64,000 nucleotides of DNA. Source: Mesostigma viride (Eukaryota; Streptophyta; Mesostigmatophyceae; Mesostigmatales; Mesostigmataceae). The position numbers were made by a program, and so were the translations under genes. The notes beneath the pieces are model-generated. The model did not search any database. It was not told where the DNA came from and saw only the letters and a list, made by a program, of their open reading frames with translations. How positions within the stretch are numbered: position 1 is the first letter of the stretch; every line of letters starts with the position of its first letter. Of the stretch, positions 45,664-64,000 are shown piece by piece. Where the stretch lies: the NCBI GenBank assembly GCA_009746045.1, contig RPFO01000754.1, positions 62,001-126,000 on the forward strand, given 5' to 3'.

Positions 45664-48600
45664 TTATCCAACACGTCCACGACTTGATCCCTGAGAAAGC
45701 CACTGCACCAATCCCCCTATCATGCTTTCATCCAAGGAATGATAAGCAGTGGGGCAATGTATAGAAATTGCAGAGAGATATAACCAGTGCTAGTACTGAG
45801 GCATGCGGTTCTGCAGCCCGCATGTGTTTTTCTTAGCTTGCTCCCATGGTATCCAACTCAAGGGCAAAGGCAGAATCGTGTCACTTCCCACCTAAGCTAG
45901 GCACAACCAGGCGTATTCTCAACTGCTCACGTGTGTTAGCAACTTCATAATTGGTTGTAGCTACTGGACCATTCCCGCAAAAGAAATTAAATGCTGCGGC
46001 TCACCTGCAAATCCTCGTAGTCCTGCACTTTGTTCTGTATGGCCACAATCACCACTGGCACCTCCTGGCCAACCAGGGGAGCAGCACCCTCCACGATCAC
46101 CTGCCAGAGGTAGCGAGCACACATGGGCGTCAGTGATACATTTCAGTAGCGACATCTTGTGATACCCAAGCAAAGACTACGAAACGCAGGGAAGGCAACA
46201 ACCCCGTGTCCGGCGATGGCCGACGTCAAAGATGCGAGCAATGACCGCACAGCATGCGATTAGCACCACGCACAAGCTTCAAAATTCACTGGCCCGAGTG
46301 CAACCGTACACTGAGAGATCATGAATAATATGCGGGGTTTGGCCTTAGGCTGAGTTCACGGGAAGAAAAACAGGTGGGCAGAGACTGTGGCAAGAATAAG
46401 AAATTAATGGTAATGGTTACAGTAGTGGTCAATTGACTCTGCTATTGCTAGCCCGTGCAGTCAGCTTGAGATGTTAATGCCAAGGCAGCTGGATACATAG
46501 TCAAAATATTTGGGACGGTGCCTTCGTACCCTGTGCACATCCCTTATCAACCCGCAATGTTCACAGTGGCAGGCATGCTCTTGATAGTCCACCCATGCCA
46601 TGCGGCACTCTCAATCATGGATTCGGTAACACGCAAGGCAGAGACGTTTGAGGTCACCATCTGTCACAAGTCAACTTCAGCAAGCCAAGTATATGTCGCG
46701 GGCTGCCAAATGCATGGGCGTGTCTCTAACAAGTGCATTCGAATCGTTTCCCCTCCACACGCTGCGGCTCCTTAGATTGTCGTCAGAAAGCAACAAACGT
46801 GCGGCTCCTTAGATGAACAGCATGCGAGGGAAGGCAGTTTTATGTGCACCTTGCAATCGAGTTCTGCAAACCTTCCACCACCGTTACCCTACACGTTGAA
46901 CTTTGTCACACATAGCAGTGACGCTAATGTATTGATGGTCTTAAACCAGCAACCAACACTTGCAAGTGGCAAATAACGCTTACACAACCGTCCAATCCTG
47001 CACGTCTGCTGGCGCATGACAACATATGCATGCACCTGGAGTCCATACAATCCTTCTGCATGGGCAATCACAGTTGTCCACATGCCTTTCACACCAACAA
47101 AACTACCAGAGTTCTTGATTTTTTGCTATTTTCTATATGCGCGAAGACGGTTGGGAATCAGCTCACTTGATCGCGCTGACAGAGTTACCGATACTGGGCC
47201 CATGGCTGCGCCTGCAACCCTTGTACTTACAGTACCCAGAGTTGTAAAAGGCATAGAGAAGGGGTTCAAGGGGGTGCACCTCGGGGTGGTCCACACAGCA
47301 TTATGTGTGCGCTAAGTTGGGCTAGTTGGTTCTGAAACTACCCGCAGTGTCAGCGGTTCGGTGGAACAGACATGCAGAACACATCGTACCATTCGACGGC
47401 ACATGCCTGAAGCAGCATCACTGCACAGTCTCGCACCCATTCTCTGTACAGCGGACTCACCATCACACCGTCTTGCAGGTAGCAAATGGCATGCTCCGTC
47501 TCGTCGAGGGGCGAGGCCACGTCTGCCAGAAGCCTGCACGCGTGCACGCGCCACAAAAGGCATGCAGCCAACGATGACAAAATCAAGGGATGCCTTTGGG
47601 TTTGGGGAAGAAGACGGGAAATACTCGTCGTCACTTTTGATGGCGCAGAGAAATAGGCATGAATGGGGCACAAAAGTGATGCGCCATCCTCGCCACCTGG
47701 CAAGCGCTTCCTCTACACAGACATTTGGCAGGCAACAACAAAATCTCGCTTTTTCAGCAAGAAGTCCCACTCCTGAAAAGGATTATTAAGGGTAGCCGAT
47801 GTGATGATAGCTAGGGTAGCCGATGTGATGATAGCTAGGGTAGCCGATGTGATGATAGCTAGGGTAGCCGATGTGATAATAGCTAGGGTAGCCGATGTGA
47901 TAATAGCTAGGGTAGCCGATGTGATGATAGCTAGGGTAGCCGATGTGATGATAGCTAGGGTAGCCGATGTGATGATAGCTAGGGCTGCCGATGTGATGAT
48001 AGCTAGGGTAGCCGATGTGATAATAGCTAGGGTAGCCGATGTGATAATAGCTAGGGTAGCCGATGTGATGATAGCTAGGGTAGCCGATGTGATGATAGCT
48101 AGGGTAGCCGATGTGATGATAGCTAGGGTAGCCGATGTGATGATAGCTAGGGTAGCCGATGTGATAATAGCTAGGGTAGCCGATGTGATGATAGCTAGGG
48201 TAGCCGATGTGATAATAGCTAGGGTAGCCGATGTGATGATAGCTAGGGTAGCCGATGTGATAATAGCTAGGGCTGCCGATGTGATAATAGCTAGGGCTGC
48301 AAGGGAAAACTCAGCCATGCCGCTTGAGGTGCCACCAGCCTACGGGCATGACACGCAGGTCAGGTGTTACATCATGTCGAGAGAGCCTTGTTGGTGCCAT
48401 GCTAAAAATGGTTGGTTGTCAATCAAGGGCCCCAGTCACCCCCCAAGAAACACATACTGTACACCCTCTGCACACAACCTCCTGCACAGCTGTCCACCTC
48501 ATCCCATCCCGATAGCAAACACCGCGCTCTTTACTATGCGATGGCACAGGGTGGGCAGAAGGTGGGCGCGCACCTGTCCCCAGGGCAGTAGATCACATCG

Positions 48601-51600: not shown

Positions 51601-54600
51601 ACCATGCTGTGAGGAAAATTATAAACTTTCGATCTTCTCAGCTAAACTTTTCCTAATTCTCAATAGTTTTCGCGGCATTTGGTCCCCCGAGAAGGGGCCG
51701 ACGTGTCGGCTGTAACTCAGTTTTAGGCGGAAAATCGGCAGCCAGACCATTTAGGGGTTAAGTGCCAGCCATGATTTGATTTCTATGCGGGAACAGGGGG
51801 TGTGGCAAACGGTCGGCGTGCATGTCGCCATCCCATTGTGACATGCAAGCTGTCAAAGCAGGTAGCAAAAAACATATGAACACCAGAAAATGTGCAGAGC
51901 TCAGCACGGCATCACATGGCCCAGTGCATGCACAAGATGCAATACGGCCAGCATACCATGCAGTTGTTAAGACCTCTTGAACAAGCCACACGCAGGGAAA
52001 CGATACAAAAATAATAACCAATGCCAGGGAATGTTTGCAATCACCGGCACGTAAAGACACGATTACATCGAAGAAAACCGGGGATCTTGGATCCTTACGT
52101 GAAGAGGTGGTACATTTGAGCGCATCTCCTCTCGGTGGAAGGGACTCGAGGGCACGAGGGCATTGCCTGGTTCCTTTCATTACGGCGGCAGGGTTTACAG
52201 CAAGAAGCTGCCGCTCGGCAAGGGTCCCCCATCGACCAGGCGGAAACCAGGGCATGCACAGTGGGCAGTTTCCGAAGCCACACAGCTCCTTGACAGCAAG
52301 CCTAGCACAGAATACCGTGCGCTGGCCACGCACCGGGATGGTAGCGTTGTCCCGCTCCGCGCCGCGCGCCTGCGTGGTCAGCCCTTGCAGCTCGACATTG
52401 GTGGGGCCGATGCGCAGGCGGTCCGGGTTGAGTTGTTGCAGGCGCTGGGTGGACACAGGGCATGGGCCAGGCACGCACAGGAGAGCCGGCAAGCGCGCGC
52501 ATGTATGTGGTGTCACCCCACTAGCTGGATCCATGCAGGGCGGCATGTCCTGGGGTACAGCAGGGACGCCATGGCTGAGCAGCTCCTGAAGTTGGCACGT
52601 GGTTTGAAGACACAGCTTTGCACACCAATGTCTACGAGGTTTGGAGGTTGCAGTGATTGACACAGGTTCGTTACACTGTGCAGTGGTCGACGCAGGTTTG
52701 GACTCTGCACTGATAGACACAATGAGAAGAGTGGGAGGACTCGACCCACTCTCCAAAGCAGCACATGACGGTAAAAGAGTTTTTGTCCGGCCATGCACTG
52801 TCCAAGTCAGGCCGCAAACAGGGTCCTTGCAGCACCCTGCCCACCACAGGCAACAGGCAACCAAATACACATATGCAAAATACACATTTGCATGGCAGCT
52901 GGTTTGGCATATCACTGATACCAGCCATACCTAAGCACCACTCTTACACAGATATATCCAAGGACCGATGGGCAAGAAGCAACTGCGACTCCAACAGATA
53001 AAGGATGGGCAAGGTGACAATGTGTTACGAGCTGTCGTAAACACATAGTACTATGCGATGTGGCTGGCATCGTGCTACAAAACGGTTTGCATCATCACAC
53101 ATATGCGATGTGGCTGGCATCGTGCTACAAAACGGTTGGCATCATCACACATATGCGATGTGGCTGGCATCGTGCTACAAAACGGTTTGCATCATCACAC
53201 ATATGCGATGTGGCTGGCATCGTGCTACAAAACGGTTTGCATCATCACACATACGCGATGTGGCTGGCATCGTGCTACAAAACGGTTTGCATCATCACAC
53301 ATATGCGATGTGGCTGGCATCGTGCTACAAAACGGTTGGCATCATCACACATATGCGATGTGGCTGGCATCGTGCTACAAAACGGTTTGCATCATCACAC
53401 ATATGCGATGTGGCTGGCATCGTGCTACAAAACGGTTTGCATCATCACACATACGCGATGTGGCTGGCATCGTGCTACAAAACGGTTCGCATCATCACAC
53501 ATATGCGATGTGGCTGGCATCGTGCTACAAAACGGTTTGCATCATCACACATATGCGATGTGGCTGGCATCGTGCTACAAAACGGTTGGCATCATCACAC
53601 ATATGCGATGTGGCTGGCATCGTGCTACAAAACGGTTTGCATCATCACACATATGCGATGTGGCTGGCATCGTGCTACAAAACGGTTGGCATCATCACAC
53701 ATATGCGATGTGGCTGGCATCGTGCTACAAAACGGTTGGCATCATCACACATATGCGATGTGGCTGGCATCGTGCTACAAAACGGTTGGCATCATCACAC
53801 ATATGCGATGTGGCTGGCATCGTGCTACAAAACGGTTTGCATCATCACACATACGCGATGTGGCTGGCATCGTGCTACAAAACGGCTCGCATCTACAAAA
53901 CCGTTGGCATCGTCGGAGGATCCCGCGGCAGGTCAAGCGCATAGAGAGGGCTCACCGCCAGCGTGTCAAGCGCATCGAGAGGGCTCACCGCCAGGTCAAG
54001 CGCATAGAGAGGGCTCACCGCCAGGTCAAGCGCATCGAGAGGGCTCACCGCCAGCGTGTCAAGCGCATAGAGAGGGCTCACCGCCAGCGTGTCAAGCGCA
54101 TAGAGAGGGCTCACCGCCAGCGTGTCAAGCGCATAGAGAGGGCTCACCGCCAGCGTGTCAAGCGCATAGAGAGGGCTCACCGCCAGCGTGTCAAGCGCAT
54201 AGAGAGGGCTCACCGCCAGCGTGTCAAGCGCATAGAGAGGGCTCACCGCCAGCGTGTCAAGCGCATAGAGAGGGCTCACCGCCAGCGTGTCAAGCGCATA
54301 GAGAGGGCTCACCGCCAGCGTGTCAAGCGCATAGAGAGGGCTCACCGCCAGCGTGTCAAGCGCATAGAGAGGGCTCACCGCCAGCGTGTCAAGCGCATAG
54401 AGAGGGCTCACCGCCAGCGTGTCAAGCGCATAGAGAGGGCTCACCGCCAGCGTGTCAAGTCCTCGCCTTCCTTTCTCACGCTTCTCGGGTGTCGTGGAAT
54501 CAGCCATGGCCTGCCGCAGGCAACGCTCCATCCATGTCAGCGTCAGCATTATTTTGGCACGATGTTCGCAGAAGGATGCGACGCAAGTTGTGGAAGGCCC

Positions 54601-57600
54601 AAGAGCAGCAGTGCCCATGTTCAAGTGCCCACATCATCCTGCAGCATCTGCCAGGGTCATGAGTTGTCCATGCCAACACGATCCATTTCCTCAAAACCAT
54701 TCCTTGTTCCGCCCACAACCTTCCCTCCCTCGGTCCCTCCCATCACTCGTCAAATATTCAGATTATGTCCACAGATTAAGAAACAATTATGGGGTGGAGA
54801 ATTTTGGACTGCCCCTCCAGCCATCCTACTCCCTGGCATCTTCGCCCTCCCTGGCATCTTGTTTCCTTCACAGGCTGAAATTCGTCATGCCGTGTGACTA
54901 CCTTGTAGTATGCCATCATTTCTCCATTCATTCTTATCGCATAAATAAATCAAACCATAGAATCAAAATGTACGTGCAAACTCTACAGCCCTCTGCACTT
55001 GAATAACGACTGGCTGGTATCCAGCGCATTCAACCACACAAGCTCCACAGTCCACCCCTGGTGACCCATGCGCCAGTTTATCTCAAAGCAAAGACAAACC
55101 AGTCATTCAGTTAACACACGGTTAAACCCTCTTCATACCTAATATAGAAAAAGAGTTGAAGAGGTTGACAAGAGACAAATATTTCCTTATTTTGCTTGCC
55201 ATTTACTCTTAAATAAAAAATTTCTAGCTGAATGCATGCGCTCACCATGGCACTGTTTCACAAGGTAGGACACGTGATCAGCTCACCGATGGCCAGCCGC
55301 TATCACGGCGAAACCGTCCCTGGAAACCAAAGCTGGCCTAAGGGACAAAGATGGGAAGCTACGTAGCCACAAGCAATGCATGGCAACAGCTGTTGTGCAA
55401 TCACCAGACCCATTAGTGGAGCATACTGCTGTCAGAAGCATGCACTGGTTGAGTGGACCTTACCACCCGATCACACTGCAAAGGGAGAAAAAGGAATAGA
55501 TGGCCCGACCAGCAATGCCCGCGAGCCAGCCACCTGGCCCATGGCTGTTTTCCTGCCAGAGGCAATTTTTGTAGCCGATAGCAAGGTCAAACACGAGAAA
55601 CATGCCGAGTGCCCTCTCGCAGCTGATGGCAAGGGCACAGAAGAGAACCATGCCAAGTGCCCTCTCACAGCTGATGGCAAGGGCACAGAAGAGAACCATG
55701 CCGAGTGCCCTCTCACAGCTGATGGCAAGGGCACAGAAGAGAACCACGCCGAGTGCCCTCTCGCTTGACCCACCTGCATCTCGGCGAGCACAAAGCCAGG
55801 GATGATCAGCTCCCCCTCCAGGAAGCCGTACTCCATAACGTACTCCACTCGACCATCCACCAGCGCGCTGCAGCGACATGTGGCGCGCATGCAAGGGGGC
55901 CGCCGCACGAACAGCAAGGAGTGAGCGGGATGCCAGCAGAGCACGCCCGCAGCCGCTATGGTCCAAGGCGACGCATGTTCTCAGTGGCCTGTTGTTGACA
56001 CAGCACATTCTTTGATCACCTCCACCCAGCTGCTGCGCACAGTGCCTGCGTGGGGGGGTCTTCCACGCCGAGGCTGACAAGGCTAATGATGCCCCTAGGC
56101 AACTCGTTCCCCTTTGCACAGCGGCGCAGCAGCAAACCGACGAACGACCGGATGGCTATTTTGCATGCCGCATCCTGGTGCAGGGTGTGACCTGGCATCG
56201 ACCTGCCCACTTGCCGTGGAACCCTGTCTGCTGCCCCTCCCTCATGTTCCAAGCTGCGGTGTAAGGGAGGGTGGATGTAAACTCCAGGCCATGACGCAAT
56301 GGCTTGTCTTATTGCATACCAGAGCCTAACCCTGAGGCAATCAAAGCTGGGTGGCTTGCCACGCAGTTCCCCACGCTGGCCACTCTGCCGTACACGCCCT
56401 GCCCCTCTCGCGCTGCCTGCTGTTTTCTATCCCATCCTTTCCTCCTGCGTGCCCCCTGGGCACGTACCTGGTGTCGATCAGCTTGCCGCGCGCCATGGGG
56501 ACGGGGTACCCCAAAAAGTCCATGTCCGGCACCACGCGCAGCTTGGAGCCGGACACCCCGCGGTCGTTGCGTGCGAAGCGCAGCGCCTGCAGCACAATGG
56601 GCACGTTCTTGCGCATGCCCACGACGACCGCCTGGACCAGGGGGGTGGGTCGGAGGGGAAACCGCAGGGGTGATGCATGTGTGGGGCGCATGAGCAGGGG
56701 AGGTCATTGCATGCGCACAGTGGGGGCGCATGGGCAGACACGGCATGCGACACGCCATGAGGCACCATGGCGGACGAGAGCGGCCATGCGCAGATTCCGG
56801 TGAGCACTCCACGAGTTGTCCGGAACAGATGGGCCGCGCGGGGACAAGGCGCGAGCAGCCTGGCACATCCCATCGCAACACATGGTTGCCTTGGTCAGCC
56901 GACGTTCCACCACCTGGCTCACCCTGCGGCGGTGGCATGGCTCACGCTACCTGGCACTCAGAAACGTTTGGAACCCATGACCTCCTCGTCCATGCCTTTG
57001 GCGTCTCGGATCAATGCCTCTGGCCTAGTAAGGCACATTGAAAACTCTGCTGAGGTGTTGAGGACAGAGAAAATATGAGCAGAGCCTCTTTCGAAGATGC
57101 CTTGTTGCATGCGTGAGTATGGCCATGGGATGCATGTGCTTTCGAAGATGCCTTGTTGCATGCGTGAGTATGGCCATGGGGTGGATGTGCTTTCGAAGAT
57201 GCCTTGTTGCATGCGTGAGTATGGCCATGGGGTGGATGTGCTTTCGAAGATGCCTTGTTGCATGCGTGAGTATGGCCATGGGGTGGATGTGCTTTCGAAG
57301 ATGCCTTGTTGCATGCGTGAGTATGGCCATGGGGTGGATGTGCTTTCGAAGATGCCTTGTTGCATGCGTGAGTATGGCCATGGGATGGATGTGCTTTCGA
57401 AGATGCCTTGTCGCATGCGTGAGTATGGCCATGGGGTGGATGTGCTTTCGAAGATGCCTTGTTGCATGCGTGAGTATGGCCATGGGATGGATGTGCTTTC
57501 GAAGATGCCTTGTCGCATGCGTGAGTATGGCCATGGGATGGATGTGCTTTCGAAGATGCCTTGTCGCATGCGTGAGTATGGCCATGGTATGGATGGGCTT

Positions 57601-59742
57601 TCGAAGATGCCTTGTTGCTAGTCCATTGCATGAACCAACATATGACTGTGAACGATTGGAGACCTAGCAGTGCCCCCCTGGGCACCGCGCCACGCTGGCC
57701 CCCCTCTCCAGGGCCTATGCCCACATTCCAGTATGCGGATCTCACGACGCCCTCTGTGCAGGGCGCGCGGTGCGCGGCGCACCTGGATGATCGCGATGGT
57801 GACGGTGATTGCAGCCAGCGGCCGCATGAGGAAGAACTCCTCCGGCAGTTGCATATCGGAGAAGGGGGCCAGCGCCAGGTCCGACACCAGCAGGCCTGTG
57901 TGTGTGCGGGGGAAGGGGGGGAGGGGTAGGGATAAGCACGGGTTGGTGGCGGTGGGGTCACCGTGATCGTGCCGGGCGACAGACGGCAGGCCATCACATC
58001 CAGCCATGCGGCAGGGAATGGGCGGGGACAAGCCGATGGAAGCCGGCGTGCGACACAGCAGCGGACTGCAGCAGATGTCCAAGCGAGGTGGCACGTCACA
58101 AAGGCAAGCGAGGGCGGCGAGGCACCCACCTACAGCCAGCCCCAGCACCATCGAAAGCAGCTCGTCCGCAGGAACGGACTGGAGGCTTGCCATCGCTTTC
58201 CGCCCTGTAGTGACCAGGCTCAGACCCTGCAGGTGGGTGGGTGGCAGCCAGCAGGCATGCGGGTGGGTGGCAGCAAGCAGTCGCGCAACCAATGAAATGC
58301 CCACGCAACCAATGCGGCGCATGTGTCCCTGAGAAGAATACTAGGGCGCCGCGGCCTGGAAACAAGGTCGACGAAACAGGGCGCATGGCGCATTACTTGG
58401 GGTACAGCTCAGGCACACACAGGCTCTAATCTTGCGCCAGCACGCCTCTTCTTCCCCAACAATATGGAAGAGTAATACCGCAGAACATGCACCCACTGAC
58501 CCACAGGCCTGCTGTCATTAAAAACAGATGCCACCCAGACGCCGGGAAGCTGTACCCACGGGGCGCGCTCACGGTGGCCATACCCAATGGGCGCGCTCAC
58601 CATGGCCAGACCCAAAAGCGTCCCCATCAGTGCGGTCGCGGTTCGTCCTTCAGCGGACGCCAGCATGTTGGATAGGTCGCCCGCAGGCAGGAAGCGGACC
58701 TGCCCACACACATGCGCCCCCGTGGTGGGGTAGGAGAGCAACGTGGGGCGGGTGTCACGATCCACCAGAGTTGCATCTGACGATAGCAATAGGGCAACAT
58801 GTCCATCGTTTGTTCTGCACAAATATTTACATGACCAGAGCCGACACTTGACCGTCATGCATGCCAACAGACACAGTACACGACTGAGGCACCCTACCTA
58901 AATAAACACAGATGTGGCGCTGCTTCCTTGCCCGACCCACAACCCCCTACGGTTCCCTGCCACCTATCAGCAGCACGCTAGTGCCATGCTTCCGTGGTAC
59001 ACATAGGCTGACCAGCCGGCCCCCCACATGACATGCCACGGGGGCACAAATCGGATGAACGGGGCATGGGCCAGTTTACCAAATCAAGGGTCACACCCAC
59101 GACATAGCTGTGCCATCTCGTCGGCCGTGCAGCCTCCGTCCACCCCGTTCCCCGCACAGCGCACGGGGCACCCTAGGGAGGGGACAAGAAAACGAACTAG
59201 AGCAGGACAGAATAGTTCCTGGTCCATGGCCCATTGACGGGTTGGTGGCATTAGCAGCACGATGAGGATGATGACTCTCCCTGTGCGCAATACTCTTGAG
59301 CAGTTCAGCAGCCACCCCCCCCAGTAGGCAATACTCTTGAGCAGTTCAGCAGTCAACCCCCCCCCCAGTAGGCATTACTCTTGAGCAGTTCAGCAGTCAA
59401 CCCCCCCCCCAGTAGGCATTACTCTTGAGCAGTTCAGCAGTCATCCCAACCCCCGCTCGCCCGCTACCTCACGGCTGCGCCCCCTGCCCCTCCCGCTGCG
59501 TCCCAAGGCGCCACGCGACCACCCCCCACCCATCATGCGGCAGCCTAGCCCACGCACCACGTCATACCCGGCCAGTGCGCACGCGATGGCGGTGCAGGAG
59601 ACAACCCACACTTCCATGATGAAGCTGCCCTCCACCGCCACCGTGGCGCTGGAGCTACCGGACCGCGCGGGGGCCCGTCGCGGCCGGCGCTGTGCCGCCT
59701 CCCATGGGTACATGCTGCTGCCGCCGCTGCTGGTGGTGGGGG

Positions 59743-59782
<40 letters not shown>

Positions 59783-59784
59783 AG

Positions 59785-59844
<60 letters not shown>

Positions 59845-60613
59845 CGCTGCCGCTGCCGCTGCCACTGCCGCTGCTGCTGGTGGTGGCGATAGTGGTGCTG
59901 TTCGCGGTGCTGCCCCTGGTACTGCTGCTGTTGCTGCTGCTGTTGCTGCTGCTGTTGCTGCTGCCGGACGCCCCCCCTCCGGCCTCCACTGGCGCAGCGC
60001 CCGGCGTGCCCTCCACCTGCGGCTCGCGGCTCGTCCCAACGGTTTCCTCGGTGTTGTTCTCCACAGAGCTACTCGTGTCAGGACTGCGGGCCATGCCACT
60101 CGTCGCCTTGACAGCGCCCTGCGACATACCGGCGTTCTCTGCCGATGCTGCCTGAAGCAGCTGGGTAATATCCTCCGGCGTTGGTAAGCGATCCTCACGC
60201 AGACCCTTTTTTGCACGACTTTTTGTGAGTTTGCGCGGTCCGCTGGCCCCATCTGCCTCCCCCGTTGCCACCAATAACGTTGCATCCTGCGGTAGGTCTG
60301 AAACCGTCAGCCCTGCCCCAGACCCTTTTCCGTCCGCTTTGACGGGCTCATCTGGCCTTATTGGTGCCGCAGGGGAGACCGGCCGGTTTCCCAAGGCCTT
60401 GTCGCGATCCCTCCCCTGACTTTCCTGCGACTTCTTCCTCGGGGGCTGTCCACCCGGTCTTACTGAGCCGCCTTTTCTTCGAGCGGCGCATTGCACGGAT
60501 AGTTGACATGGCAGAGCCGCGGGGCGTTTAGGAAAGCTAATCTGGAAAGCTAAAGCTAATCGGTGGTCCCATCCCACCATGCCTCGCACACCCTGCATCC
60601 ACGCGCGTCCCAC
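45664..60613 (-). CDS. YacL-type PIN/TRAM domain membrane protein, about 14 exons, likely plastid
   Basis: PIN domains are metal-dependent ribonuclease folds and TRAM domains bind RNA; the YacL group joins them to N-terminal membrane helices. The exons are 60613-59530, 59172-59101, 58699-58601, 58226-58130, 57895-57783, 56631-56468, 55867-55774, 54510-54445, 52444-52334, 49761-49681, 48659-48574, 47533-47461, 46100-46005 and 45690-45664. From exon 3 onward every phase agrees. Between exons 2 and 3 it does not, so a small exon is missing or exon 2 is wrong. Exon 1 encodes a basic leader, Ser/Asn runs and one helix. Exons 3-5 add helices. Exons 6-11 make the PIN domain: LIDTSALVDGRVEY, PGFVLAEMQAMADS, KREKGRRGLDTL, VEVDAALIWLAKRL, LVTLDYNLQQ and IAQMQGIVVFNINEFSKAI, with the catalytic acids (DTS, AEMQ, MADS, LDYN) kept. 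Exons 12-14 make the TRAM part: YLQDGVMVIVEGAAPLVGQE to LQGSSRGRVG. The length is about 750 residues. The RNA target is unknown. Confidence 0.85.
47796..48300. repeat. 24-bp minisatellite in PIN/TRAM intron 11
   Basis: About 21 units contain GGGTAGCCGATGTGATGATA. GATGAT/GATAAT and GGGTA/GGGCT variants occur. It is open in frames on both strands only because the unit is a multiple of three. Confidence 0.95.
53053..53900. repeat. 50-bp minisatellite in PIN/TRAM intron 8
   Basis: Seventeen units contain ATGCGATGTGGCTGGCATCG and TGCTACAAAACGGTT. They are nearly identical, with T/G/C variation at GGTTTGC, GGTTGGC and GGTTCGC. It abuts the splice-site array at 53946. Confidence 0.95.
53946..54460 (-). 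repeat. 33/30-bp array of duplicated 5' splice sites after PIN/TRAM exon 8
   Basis: Exon 8 ends CTTGACACGCTGGCG and the intron begins GTGAGCCCTC. The array repeats this junction: each unit is GTGAGCCCTCTCTATGCG followed by CTTGACACGCTGGCG. There are 16 GGCG/GTGAGC junctions, with exon boundaries from 54445 down to 53956. The 489 bases between first and last equal 13 units of 33 and two of 30. All spacings are multiples of three and no unit contains a stop in the exon frame, so use of any donor would add copies of VSPLYALDTLA or VSPLYALDLA to the PIN domain. Confidence 0.9.
55590..55765. repeat. 48-bp minisatellite at the start of PIN/TRAM intron 7
   Basis: Three to four units contain GCCCTCTCACAGCTGATGGC and AAGGGCACAGAAGAGAACCA. 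The array starts about ten bases inside the intron. On the coding strand each unit holds CAGCTGTGAGAG, a donor-like sequence, and the exon frame stays open through the array. Confidence 0.85.
57070..57612. repeat. 51-bp minisatellite in PIN/TRAM intron 5
   Basis: About ten units contain TTTCGAAGATGCCTTGTTGC and ATGCGTGAGTATGGCCATGG. GGGGTGG/GGGATGG and TTGTTGC/TTGTCGC variants alternate. Confidence 0.95.
59283..59445. repeat. Tandem repeat of ~43-50 bp in PIN/TRAM intron 1
   Basis: Four units contain ACTCTTGAGCAGTTCAGCAG followed by TCAACCC and a C run of variable length, then AGTAGGCAT. Unit length changes with the C run. Confidence 0.85.
59740..59965 (-). repeat. Coding trinucleotide tract (poly-Ser and poly-Asn) in PIN/TRAM exon 1
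   Basis: Read on the coding strand, AGC and GGC codons give Ser and Ser-Gly runs and an uninterrupted AAC run gives about twelve Asn, bounded on both sides by Ser runs. It lies between the transit-like leader and the first membrane helix, so it forms a disordered linker. Such tracts are expected to vary in length between strains. Confidence 0.9.
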
Positions 60614-61582
60614 GCCTGGCGTCTGCCGGCTGCAGTTGGATTGACTAGTAATCTAAATCGGGGCACCGCGCTTTCCGTCTTCAACCGCCTTGTCATCAGA
60701 ATGTTGAAGTCATAGCAGGTGTCATTAAGTTCATCAGATTTCCCATGACTGTAATCGCATTTGCGTAGGACGTTCCATGCTGCTAGCGGCCTTGGGTTGG
60801 CACCCCCATGACACCATTCCTCAAGGCAACCATTTCTACTTTGCACGCAGTAGCACTAAAAATTGTATAGCATGGTGTCGCTACATCCACACAAAGCTCA
60901 TCCTGTCTCCCCTTTCGGTCTACCACAGTCCTGCGATAATGTTGCACGTGTGCACAGACCTGCAATAAAAGGAGGCCACTTCGCTAATATACGGAATCGC
61001 TGTGTTTATTGCGTGCACGTGAGCATATGGAACAGCTATAGCGTCGTTATGATATGGTCATTATGGTGCGTGCTCATATGAGTTATGCTGCCGTATGCAA
61101 GCTTAGTTATAGTATATTCCGTACATACTGGATGTCAGAGTTAGCAGTGAACTGTGAAACGGAACCCAAATATTGTGTTTTTCTTAGACTGCCCTACGCG
61201 CCTCACGCACATCTAGGCGCTGTCGAAAAATAGCTTTCGAACTGGGTAAAATGTGGGCCACGTTTATATAAACAGCAATGGCGGATAACCGTGCAGAATT
61301 CAGCTTCGGTGATTTGATCTAAGTAAACAGTTGCAACGACAAGTTGCCTTTTTCAATGCCAACTGTGCATAGAGAAATTTGGATATGGGCTCTGTATTTG
61401 TAATTGGGAATCATGTATAATTTGGGCCTACGTTGGGCGCCATTGGGATGGCGACCTTGGTTTCTCTAACAGGACATGCATCTGCAATGGTGACCCTGGC
61501 TTAAACTCCTGGCTCTTGATATGGCAGAAATTGATGGTAGGGGGATCGTCCATACAATTTTAGTGAAGCTGTAGTTGGGAAA
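60614..61582. promoter_or_regulatory. Divergent intergenic region between PIN/TRAM gene and CFAP221
   Basis: The two start codons are 970 bases apart on opposite strands, so both promoters must lie here. I see no repeat array and no clear core element. Confidence 0.4.
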
Positions 61583-62804
61583 ATGATCGCCGTTGGGGGG
61601 CGCGGAGGGCCTATGGATACCTACATTGATGATACCACGCAAAAGCCCCCAAACACCTTGACATCCAACAGCAGTAAGTGAACGTCTAAATTACGCTATA
61701 GCATATACTCTCGCCAAAATGTACATTTTGACTACATGACGCTATACTGTCATCCTCTCGTTTGCTGTCTTAAGATTATGTCTAGCTGGATTTTTGCCCC
61801 GACATGCATGGCCGCCGAGTTGTTATTTTCAAGGTTTCCAAAATCCCGCAGAAGACTGCCTCGATCCTGTAGTAAACCCTTTTTATTTGCTAAAATGCTA
61901 AATTAGGTGGTCTTGTGTTCTTCTAATTTTTGTCCCGTCAATTTTTTTACCAATCGTTTTCTATGAAACTGGCGTTTCAGGGGTGTACGCAAAGCTAGGT
62001 AATAACAGGTTTTTTGAAGTCCGGCCTGCTATCCTCCATTTCGGAGGGTATAGGGTGGGGAAGACACATGCACAGAAAATCCGTGTGGTCAACGTCTCTG
62101 AGCGGAGCCGACGACTTCACATCATTGAGCCAGCAACACCCTTCTTCCGTATCAAATGTAACAAACAGGTGAGCTGATGTGCATTTGCTCCATGCTATCC
62201 ACGGACACGCTGTATGAAAAGCATGGTGTCAGACTAATCCTGCCTCCACGGTAAACACATCCCGAGGCCGGACCATCTTATCCATTTCATTTCCCTTTCC
62301 ATCCATGCATGTCTTGTGACCCCTAATTTTGTCCAGGGCAATCCTTCGCAAGGGCAAGGGCATGGGAATGCTCGGCACCATTGAGGTCTAGATTAAGATG
62401 CCGGACGCCTTTTGATGGCGCTGCACTGCTTGCTGCTACGGCATCCCTTGAAGCTCTGCATGTTCTGTCAGGTATAACTAATGCGTGGGGTGCTGGGTAA
62501 ACAGCGCTCTGGCATGCACTCGCCCTGACTGCATCCACAATCCGGCGCCTGGGCCGCGTGGCGCATGGCCCCTTGCCACCGCACACTGGCTACTTGCATA
62601 TGCGCCGCAGGGCCTGATTGCTCCCGGCATGTGCGAGGAGGTGGTGGTGGAGTTTGTGCCCACCGAGTGGCGCTACTACTACGACACGCTGCGCATCCAC
62701 AGCGAGGAGGAGAACCTGCTGCTTCCTCTGCACGCCTACCCCGTGCTCAACCGCGCCAGCTTCCCCAAGCGGCTCGACTTTGGGCGATGTGTTATCCATG
62801 AGAC
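61583..62804 (+). CDS. CFAP221: CFAP221 (FAP221/PCDP1), first three exons, gene continues beyond the window
   Basis: CFAP221 is a calmodulin-binding protein of the C1d projection on the ciliary central pair and is needed for normal beating. The exons are 61583-61673, 61981-62168 and 62611-62804, all GT-AG with agreeing phases (1, 0, 2). The start is the ATG at 61583; a second in-frame ATG at 61613 is also possible. Exons 2 and 3 encode an ASH/MSP-type domain: FFEVRPAILHFGGYRVGKTH, KIRVVNVSERSRRLHII and GLIAPGMCEEVVVEFVPTEW. The family signature follows at EWRYYYDTLRIHSEEENLLL and PLHAYPVLN. About 158 residues are seen, roughly a fifth of the usual protein. The donor of exon 3 opens into a long repeat array. 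It indicates that the organism builds motile flagella. Confidence 0.85.
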
Positions 62805-64000
62805 GTGAGTGAGGGGAGCCGTGAGTGAGGGGAGACGTGAGTGAGGGGAGAGGCCAGTGAGGGGAGAGGTGAGTGAGGGGAGACGTGAGTGGGGGGAAAG
62901 GCCAGTGAGGGGAGACGTGAGTGAGGGGAAAGGCCAGTGAGGGGAGACGTGAGTGAGGGGAGACGTGAGTGGGGGGAGAGGCCAGTGAGGGGAGACGTGA
63001 GTGGGGGAGAGGCCAGTGAGGGGAGACGTGAGTGGGGGAGAGGTGAGTGAGGGGAGAGGTGAGTGAGGGGAGAGGTGAGTGAGGGGAGACGTGAGTGAGG
63101 GGAGACGTGAGTGAGGGGAAAGGCCAGTGAGGGGAGACGTGAGTGGGGGGAGAGGCCAGTGAGGGGAGACGTGAGTGGGGGGAAAGGCCAGTGAGGGGAG
63201 ACGTGAGTGGGGGGAGAGGTGAGTGAGGGGAGACGTGAGTGAGGGGAAAGGCCAGTGAGGGGAGACGTGAGTGAGGGGAGAGGCCAGTGAGGGGAGACGT
63301 GAGTGAGGGGAAAGGCCAGTGAGGGGAGACGTGAGTGGGGGAGAGGCCAGTGAGGGGAGACGTGAGTGAGGGGAAAGGCCAGTGAGGGGAGACGTGAGTG
63401 GGGGGAAAGGCCAGTGAGGGGAGACGTGAGTGGGGGGAGACGTGAGTGGGGGGAGAGGTGAGTGAGGGGAGAGGCCAGTGAGGGGAGACGTGAGTGGGGG
63501 AGAGGCCAGTGAGGGGAGACGTGAGTGGGGGGAGAGGTGAGTGAGGGGAGAGGTGAGTGAGGGGAGAGGCCAGTGAGGGGAGACGTGAGTGGGGGAGACG
63601 TGAGTGAGGGGAGAGGTGAGTGGGGGGAGAGGCCAGTGAGGGGAGACGTGAGTGGGGGGAGAGGTGAGTGAGGGGAGAGGTGAGTGGGGGAGAGGTGAGT
63701 GAGGGGAGACGTGAGTGAGGGGAAAGGCCAGTGAGGGGAGACGTGAGTGGGGGGAAAGGCCAGTGAGGGGAGACGTGAGTGGGGGGAGACGTGAGTGGGG
63801 GGAGAGGTGAGTGAGGGGAGACGTGAGTGAGGGGAGACGTGAGTGAGGGGAGACGTGAGTGAGGGGAAAGGCCAGTGAGGGGAGACGTGAGTGAGGGAGA
63901 GGCCAGTGAGGGGAGACGTGAGTGAGGGGAAAGGCCAGTGAGGGGAGACGTGAGTGAGGGGAAAGGCCAGTGAGGGGAGACGTGAGTGGGGGAAAGGCCA
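62805..64000 (+). repeat. 16-bp minisatellite built on the CFAP221 exon 3 splice donor
   Basis: The array begins at the first intron base. Units are GTGAGTGAGGGGAGAC and variants (GTGAGTGGGGGGAGAG, GTGAGTGAGGGGAAAG, GCCAGTGAGGGGAGAC), often paired into 32-bp doublets. Exon 3 ends GAGAC and the intron starts GTGAGT; the junction GAGACGTGAGT is repeated dozens of times. It runs off the window, so at least 1.2 kb of intron 3 is this G-rich array. Confidence 0.95.

Follow-up and report, generated by a model that had tools for sequence, protein, structure and literature searches.

In a YacL-like PIN gene on the minus strand of a Mesostigma viride contig, the end of exon 8, together with its 5' splice site, forms the unit of a minisatellite offering 16 splice donors, and this array is a junction minisatellite of the kind found in the human IFI6 and CBS genes. 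We put the probability at roughly 75% that it arose by duplication of the exon-intron junction and that the first donor is the one mainly spliced, with the other 15 acting as decoys that may leak. The features discussed here (Table 1) lie in a window of 64,000 nt on contig RPFO01000754.1; the published M. viride genome (strain NIES-296) is given as 441.8 Mb in PMC6947507.

Table 1. Features of the window at and around the exon-8 donor array (a slash marks an exon-intron boundary).
Feature	Positions	Strand	Description
Minisatellite at exon-8 donor	53932..54459	minus	unit CTTGACACGCTGGCG/GTGAGCCCTCTCTATGCG, 16 donors
First donor, GTGAGC	54439..54444	minus	donor chosen in public gene model
16th (last) donor, GTGAGC	53950..53955	minus	use would add 163 residues
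Exon 8 of PIN gene	54445..54510	minus	66 nt, AMADSTTPEKREKGRRGLDTLA; final 15 nt make up the exonic half of the unit
Exon 9	52334..52444	minus	RLQQLNPDRLRIG...; acceptor-side partner of exon 8
Second minisatellite, intron 8	53052..53893	minus	50 bp x 16.8; period not a multiple of three
48-bp x 4 minisatellite	55573..55762	minus	about 11 nt into intron 7; abuts donor, does not include it
28-bp x 2.2 duplication across exon-3 donor	58553..58615	minus	second donor would shift frame
16-bp minisatellite, GAGAC/GTGAGTGAGGG	62800..64000	plus	starts at CFAP221-like exon end; putative donor

Tandem Repeats Finder reported the exon-8 array with a period of 33, 16.2 copies, and 97% matches. The 33-bp unit consists of the last 15 nt of exon 8 (CTTGACACGCTGGCG) and the first 18 nt of intron 8 (GTGAGCCCTCTCTATGCG). 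Its GTGAGC donors follow one another on the minus strand from 54444 and 54411 down to 53955, at spacings of 33 (12 times), 30, 30, and 33, and all 16 share the context GGCG/GTGAGC, each unit thus retaining an intact GCG/GTGAGC. Numbered from exon 8, units 1-12 are identical to each other, variation is confined to units 13-15, which have a T>G change (TAT to GAT) and/or a 3-base deletion, and unit 16 returns to the common form. The offsets of the later donors are divisible by three in 15/15 cases, and the gene frame, one of the three of six frames that are open in the unit, stays open throughout the array; the 489 nt between the first and last donors correspond to 163 residues. An earlier note, made from this sequence alone, had described a unit made of the exon-8 end plus donor, 16 junctions in one context, spacings in multiples of three, the lack of stops, and a possible gain of 0 to 163 residues placed after KGRRGLDTLA, and had suggested that unequal crossing-over might change the number of units. 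Its observation of the array is confirmed. Exon 8 joins exon 9 at GLDTLA/RLQ, and both the exon end and the joining point agree with the public M. viride gene model.

A 39-mer bridging two donors had 13 matches (up to 3 mismatches) in the 439.9-Mb assembly, all of them at the exon-8 locus, and a dispersed or mobile element was ruled out as the source of the array, the unit being unique in the assembly. The flank on the exon-8/intron-7 side matched itself and one 66-base stretch elsewhere (88%) and nothing else; in the one assembly searched, neither the array nor its flank turned up a second time. Those 66 bases of intron 7 match a stretch of another scaffold (L021, 1501-1566), possibly as part of a dispersed repeat. 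RNA of exon 8 plus the array folded less stably than all 100 shuffled sequences (z +3.32), and we therefore claim no structural role for the array.

Exons 3-9 of the host gene join as one open frame with GT/AG ends, reading LIDTSALVDGR ... LAEMQ/AMADSTTPEKREKGRRGLDTLA/RLQQLNPDRL. A search of 5.8 billion proteins, in which 7996 candidates were scored, returned 97 hits. The best of these was the M. viride model eukprot jgi/Mesvir1/26041/Mv09584-RA.2 (P0001; 458 aa), with 100% identity across the whole 303-residue query, and the remaining hits, where the source gives a name, were mostly 'uncharacterized protein YacL'. The PIN domain is present (PF01850, 26.5 bits against a cut-off of 23.6), while the C-terminal TRAM domain scored below its cut-off (PF01938, 12.4 bits against 21) with its aligned region and beta strands present. 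The host protein family is that of the bacterial YacL-like PIN-TRAM proteins, and the best fold match was 3ix7 (E 5.4e-11), the PIN domain of Thermus TTHA0540. The gene holds further intronic minisatellites on the minus strand, at 47789-48296 (24 bp x 21) and 57088-57618 (51 bp x 10). Just upstream of it, on the same strand, a 403-codon open frame at 59441-60652 has long Ser/Asn/Gly runs and ends in a likely membrane helix (SFIMEVWVVSCTAIACALAGYDVV); it may contain the true N-terminal exon, missing from the public model.

The public model reads GLDTLARLQ, i.e., it uses the first donor and carries zero repeat units. Possibly this model was predicted and does not represent a transcript; the gene models of Liang 2019, a set to which it may belong, are described there as integrating ab initio, homology, and RNA-seq evidence. 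The interval from G259 to Q267 was exactly nine residues in 97/97 proteins, the M. viride model included, and no insertion at the junction point was found among these 97 (96 besides the M. viride model); unlike the Mesostigma locus, the proteins found have neither repeat nor insertion there. The exon 8/9 junction falls after residue 264, within a predicted helix (250-269) whose AlphaFold2 blocks 251-260 and 261-270 had mean pLDDT of 97 and 95, in a model that was moderate overall (mean pLDDT 72.3, pTM 0.45) and had 16 of the 97 proteins in its alignment. Since the junction lies inside a confidently predicted helix and Thermus 3ix7 aligns through that helix without a gap, extra units would probably split a core helix. 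Considering the public model, the 0/97 proteins with an insertion, and the position of the junction in a helix, the protein-length rheostat proposed in the earlier note is unsupported.

It is nevertheless necessary to consider a ladder in which splicing is shared fairly evenly among several of the 16 donors, yielding PIN proteins with 0 to 163 extra residues in a mix tuned by array length. All 16 donors share one 9-mer, with 6/9 matches to CAG/GTRAGT, and local sequence therefore cannot choose among them; all are in frame and open, and downstream repeat units have been reported as donors in IFI6. Moreover, with LDTLA at the end of the common unit, the sequence joining RLQ is regenerated and a folded product of later donors is conceivable. 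However, the zero units of the public model, the uninterrupted proteins, and the high-confidence helix all argue against such a ladder, as does, weakly, a two-unit isoform query that found no match among 3981 candidates, in a search whose length limit kept full-length proteins out. We consider this explanation quite improbable. Splicing most likely relies mainly on the first donor, with the others dormant or leaky. Short reads would be able to separate first-donor use from later-donor use. The unique part of exon 8 is GGAAGGCGAGGA, followed by CTTGACACGCTGGCG, and exon 9 starts CGCCTGCAACAA; the first-donor junction string is GGAAGGCGAGGACTTGACACGCTGGCG/CGCCTGCAACAA, and the repeat-unit strings before exon 9 are CTCTCTATGCGCTTGACACGCTGGCG for donors 2-13, CTCGATGCGCTTGACCTGGCG for donor 14, CTCTATGCGCTTGACCTGGCG for donor 15, and CTCGATGCGCTTGACACGCTGGCG for donor 16.

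The reading frame of the array tells little about its use. Among 105 minisatellites (periods 9-200) in 286,655 sampled bases, comprising the window, its flanks, and scattered stretches, 46 had periods divisible by three, and the chance that a unit has such a period and is also free of stops in a given frame, computed from consensus units, was 0.36 overall and 0.34 for units of 20-60 bp. Since about one third of the sampled minisatellites are in frame and open by chance, the in-frame, open state of the exon-8 array is weak evidence for a rheostat. The 15 spacings are likewise not 15 independent facts, as they reflect one unit length and one type of 3-base deletion in two adjacent units.

Junction-spanning repeats were also found elsewhere in this genome. 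Outside this contig, minisatellites covered 13.6% of the 204,014 bases sampled, a base rate that is uneven between the sampled loci (6.6% without the two stretches in which array makes up over half of the bases; median per locus 2.9%). When exons 3-9 of the PIN gene were examined, 2/7 donors were spanned (exons 3 and 8), the exon 7 donor was abutted, and 0/7 acceptors were spanned; the chance of at least 2/7 donors being spanned was p = 0.07-0.25 against the 13.6% and 6.6% coverages. We also surveyed exon ends at the 44 matches to dynein-heavy-chain AAA_6, fetching 20 donor and 20 acceptor stretches as a subset of these ends and dropping donors L045 and L048 and acceptor L070, whose sites could not be assigned. 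Tandem repeats including exon bases spanned 3/18 assigned donors (L047, 24 bp; L053, 40 bp; L054, 109 bp) and 0/19 assigned acceptors, at a TRF minimum score of 30; the three spanning donors also passed at 50, and the L039 donor, where a 9-bp x 2 repeat ends, does not count as spanned. Two or three acceptors had an array ending no more than 15 nt away (L065, L069, and, at the lower threshold, L068).

A further case lies in the neighboring gene, which is CFAP221-like (P0098). Its array, GAGACGTGAGTGAGGG, fills the contig to its end, 8,641 bases past the window and more than 9.8 kb altogether. The public model P0098 ends in HET, followed by a TGA within the first donor-like site, at the array; since the homologues P0099 and P0100 continue where P0098 stops, we infer an exon end at this point, and the public model is probably truncated. 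Altogether, five other junction-spanning repeats were found, i.e., three dynein donors, PIN exon 3, and the putative CFAP221-like exon end, and in 0/5 would the extra donors seen yield an open, in-frame product; of the six, exon 8 has the only array that stays open as well as in frame. The extra donors seen in the other five would either change the frame or lie beyond a stop, which suggests that junction arrays are tolerated without being read. This genome seems to live with duplicated donors that are little used, and the first donor would therefore be favored at exon 8 as well. Genome-wide, triple GTGAGC occurred 5818 times vs. 3727 for a reversed control; however, long arrays add many counts and GTGAGC itself is commoner than its control (189 vs. 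137 in the sample), and we therefore did not use these counts as evidence. Among the first matches listed, all on scaffold C1, were ten GTGAGC arrays, with an upstream open frame of at least 64 codons in 7/10.

Such recurrence raises the question of whether minisatellites nucleate at the 5' splice sites of this genome more often than at the 3' sites. When dynein and PIN-gene exons 3-9 were pooled with the exon-8 donor left out, 4/24 donors and 0/26 acceptors were spanned by repeats with bases on either side of the site (Fisher p = 0.046). However, the difference shrank to 4/24 vs. 1/26 (p = 0.18) when a sequence-recurrence score replaced TRF, dynein alone gave 3/18 vs. 0/19 (p = 0.105), and 4/24 was not clearly over background coverage (p = 0.07-0.42). 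Counting arrays that end within 15 nt, moreover, gives 3-4/18 dynein donors and 2-3/19 acceptors, and the ten GTGAGC arrays listed on one scaffold are not decisive. The donor excess over acceptors is suggestive only, and we regard a mutational bias of this sort as unlikely. A broader version, with 5' splice sites as the preferred birthplace of minisatellites, which then carry copies of functional donors through introns, and with a leaky, low-level, allele-dependent ladder of PIN isoforms as the outcome here, seems to us very unlikely.

Extra copies might instead draw U1 to the vicinity of a weak 5' splice site and so help it, whichever donor is cut. Exons 3 and 8, both spanned by repeats, have the two weakest of the nine PIN-gene donors compared, each with 6/9 matches to CAG/GTRAGT, a coincidence expected once in 36 by chance. 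This is a post hoc comparison of nine donors in one gene by one crude score, however, and a weaker junction recurrence (13/18 bases at +132) is seen at the exon-4 donor, which does not belong to the weakest. We hold such donor redundancy to be a long shot. Main use of the first donor has points against it as well, in that the 9-mer shared by 16/16 donors leaves nothing local to favor the first, all 16 GTs are intact, and the array is the sole one of six that is in frame and open.

The human IFI6 minisatellite starts at an exon end, comprises ~26 units of 12 bp, and gives isoforms in 4-residue steps, its later donors keeping the reading frame. Like it, the array in the Mesostigma PIN gene is a minisatellite across an exon-intron junction that offers multiple splice donors, and its later donors stay in frame. 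Unlike IFI6, the Mesostigma unit is 33 bp long and sits in the gene of a PIN-domain protein in an alga, and its later donors are candidates, whereas those of IFI6 are reported from mRNAs. The earlier note knew of no named system with a multiplied donor, which was mistaken: the IFI6 (6-16, G1P3) donor minisatellite is named in a title of 1995 (Turri, Cuin and Porter, NAR 23:1854), a passage of PMC4526556 reports variants in which two downstream repeat units serve as donors, giving three mRNAs of which the 130-residue form predominates, and CBS provides a second case (PMC2630376). The human CBS 31-bp VNTR is written c.1444_1467+7(16_21) in PMC2630376, a name that stands for 24 exon and 7 intron bases in 16-21 copies; it is polymorphic in people, and a table in PMC1395315 enters it as 'exon 13-intron 13'. 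The Mesostigma unit resembles it in consisting of an exon end and donor; the CBS unit differs in that 31 bp cannot be divided by three, which makes its donors change the frame. In 2001, Lievers reportedly linked alternative splicing to this VNTR. CBS 844ins68 is presented in PMC2630376 as a tandem duplication of an exon-intron junction with two competing splice sites. Compared with the Mesostigma array it has two copies only, and the intron 7/exon 8 side is duplicated. Literature searches by topic, rather than by gene, listed no description of the Mesostigma array.

The origin of the array can be pictured as follows. In a genome with many minisatellites, one would have been born at an exon-intron junction, when a 33-bp segment, reaching from 15 bases before the end of exon 8 to 18 bases into intron 8, underwent tandem duplication and then expanded. 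Since the exonic half of the unit encodes Leu260, invariant in 16 aligned proteins, along with the mostly Asp position 261, exon 8 probably served as the template of the unit. The exon-proximal units are probably recent copies, since units are identical on the exon side and the variants sit near the intron-distal end; if expansion beside the exon was recent, then the intactness of all 16 GTs would need no selection. The ancestral first donor would be mainly spliced, giving a normal PIN protein, while the other 15 would be redundant decoys within the intron, from which there may be leakage of the limited sort known from the donor minisatellite of human IFI6. The in-frame state would make leakage less harmful and is not evidence of selection for the array.

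Junction-spanning tandem repeats are familiar from two human genes. They seem to recur in this streptophyte alga, where they appear to be tolerated even where the extra donors would break the frame. With 16 identical donors in one intron, differing mainly by position, the exon-8 array of M. viride is a natural test of 5' splice-site choice.
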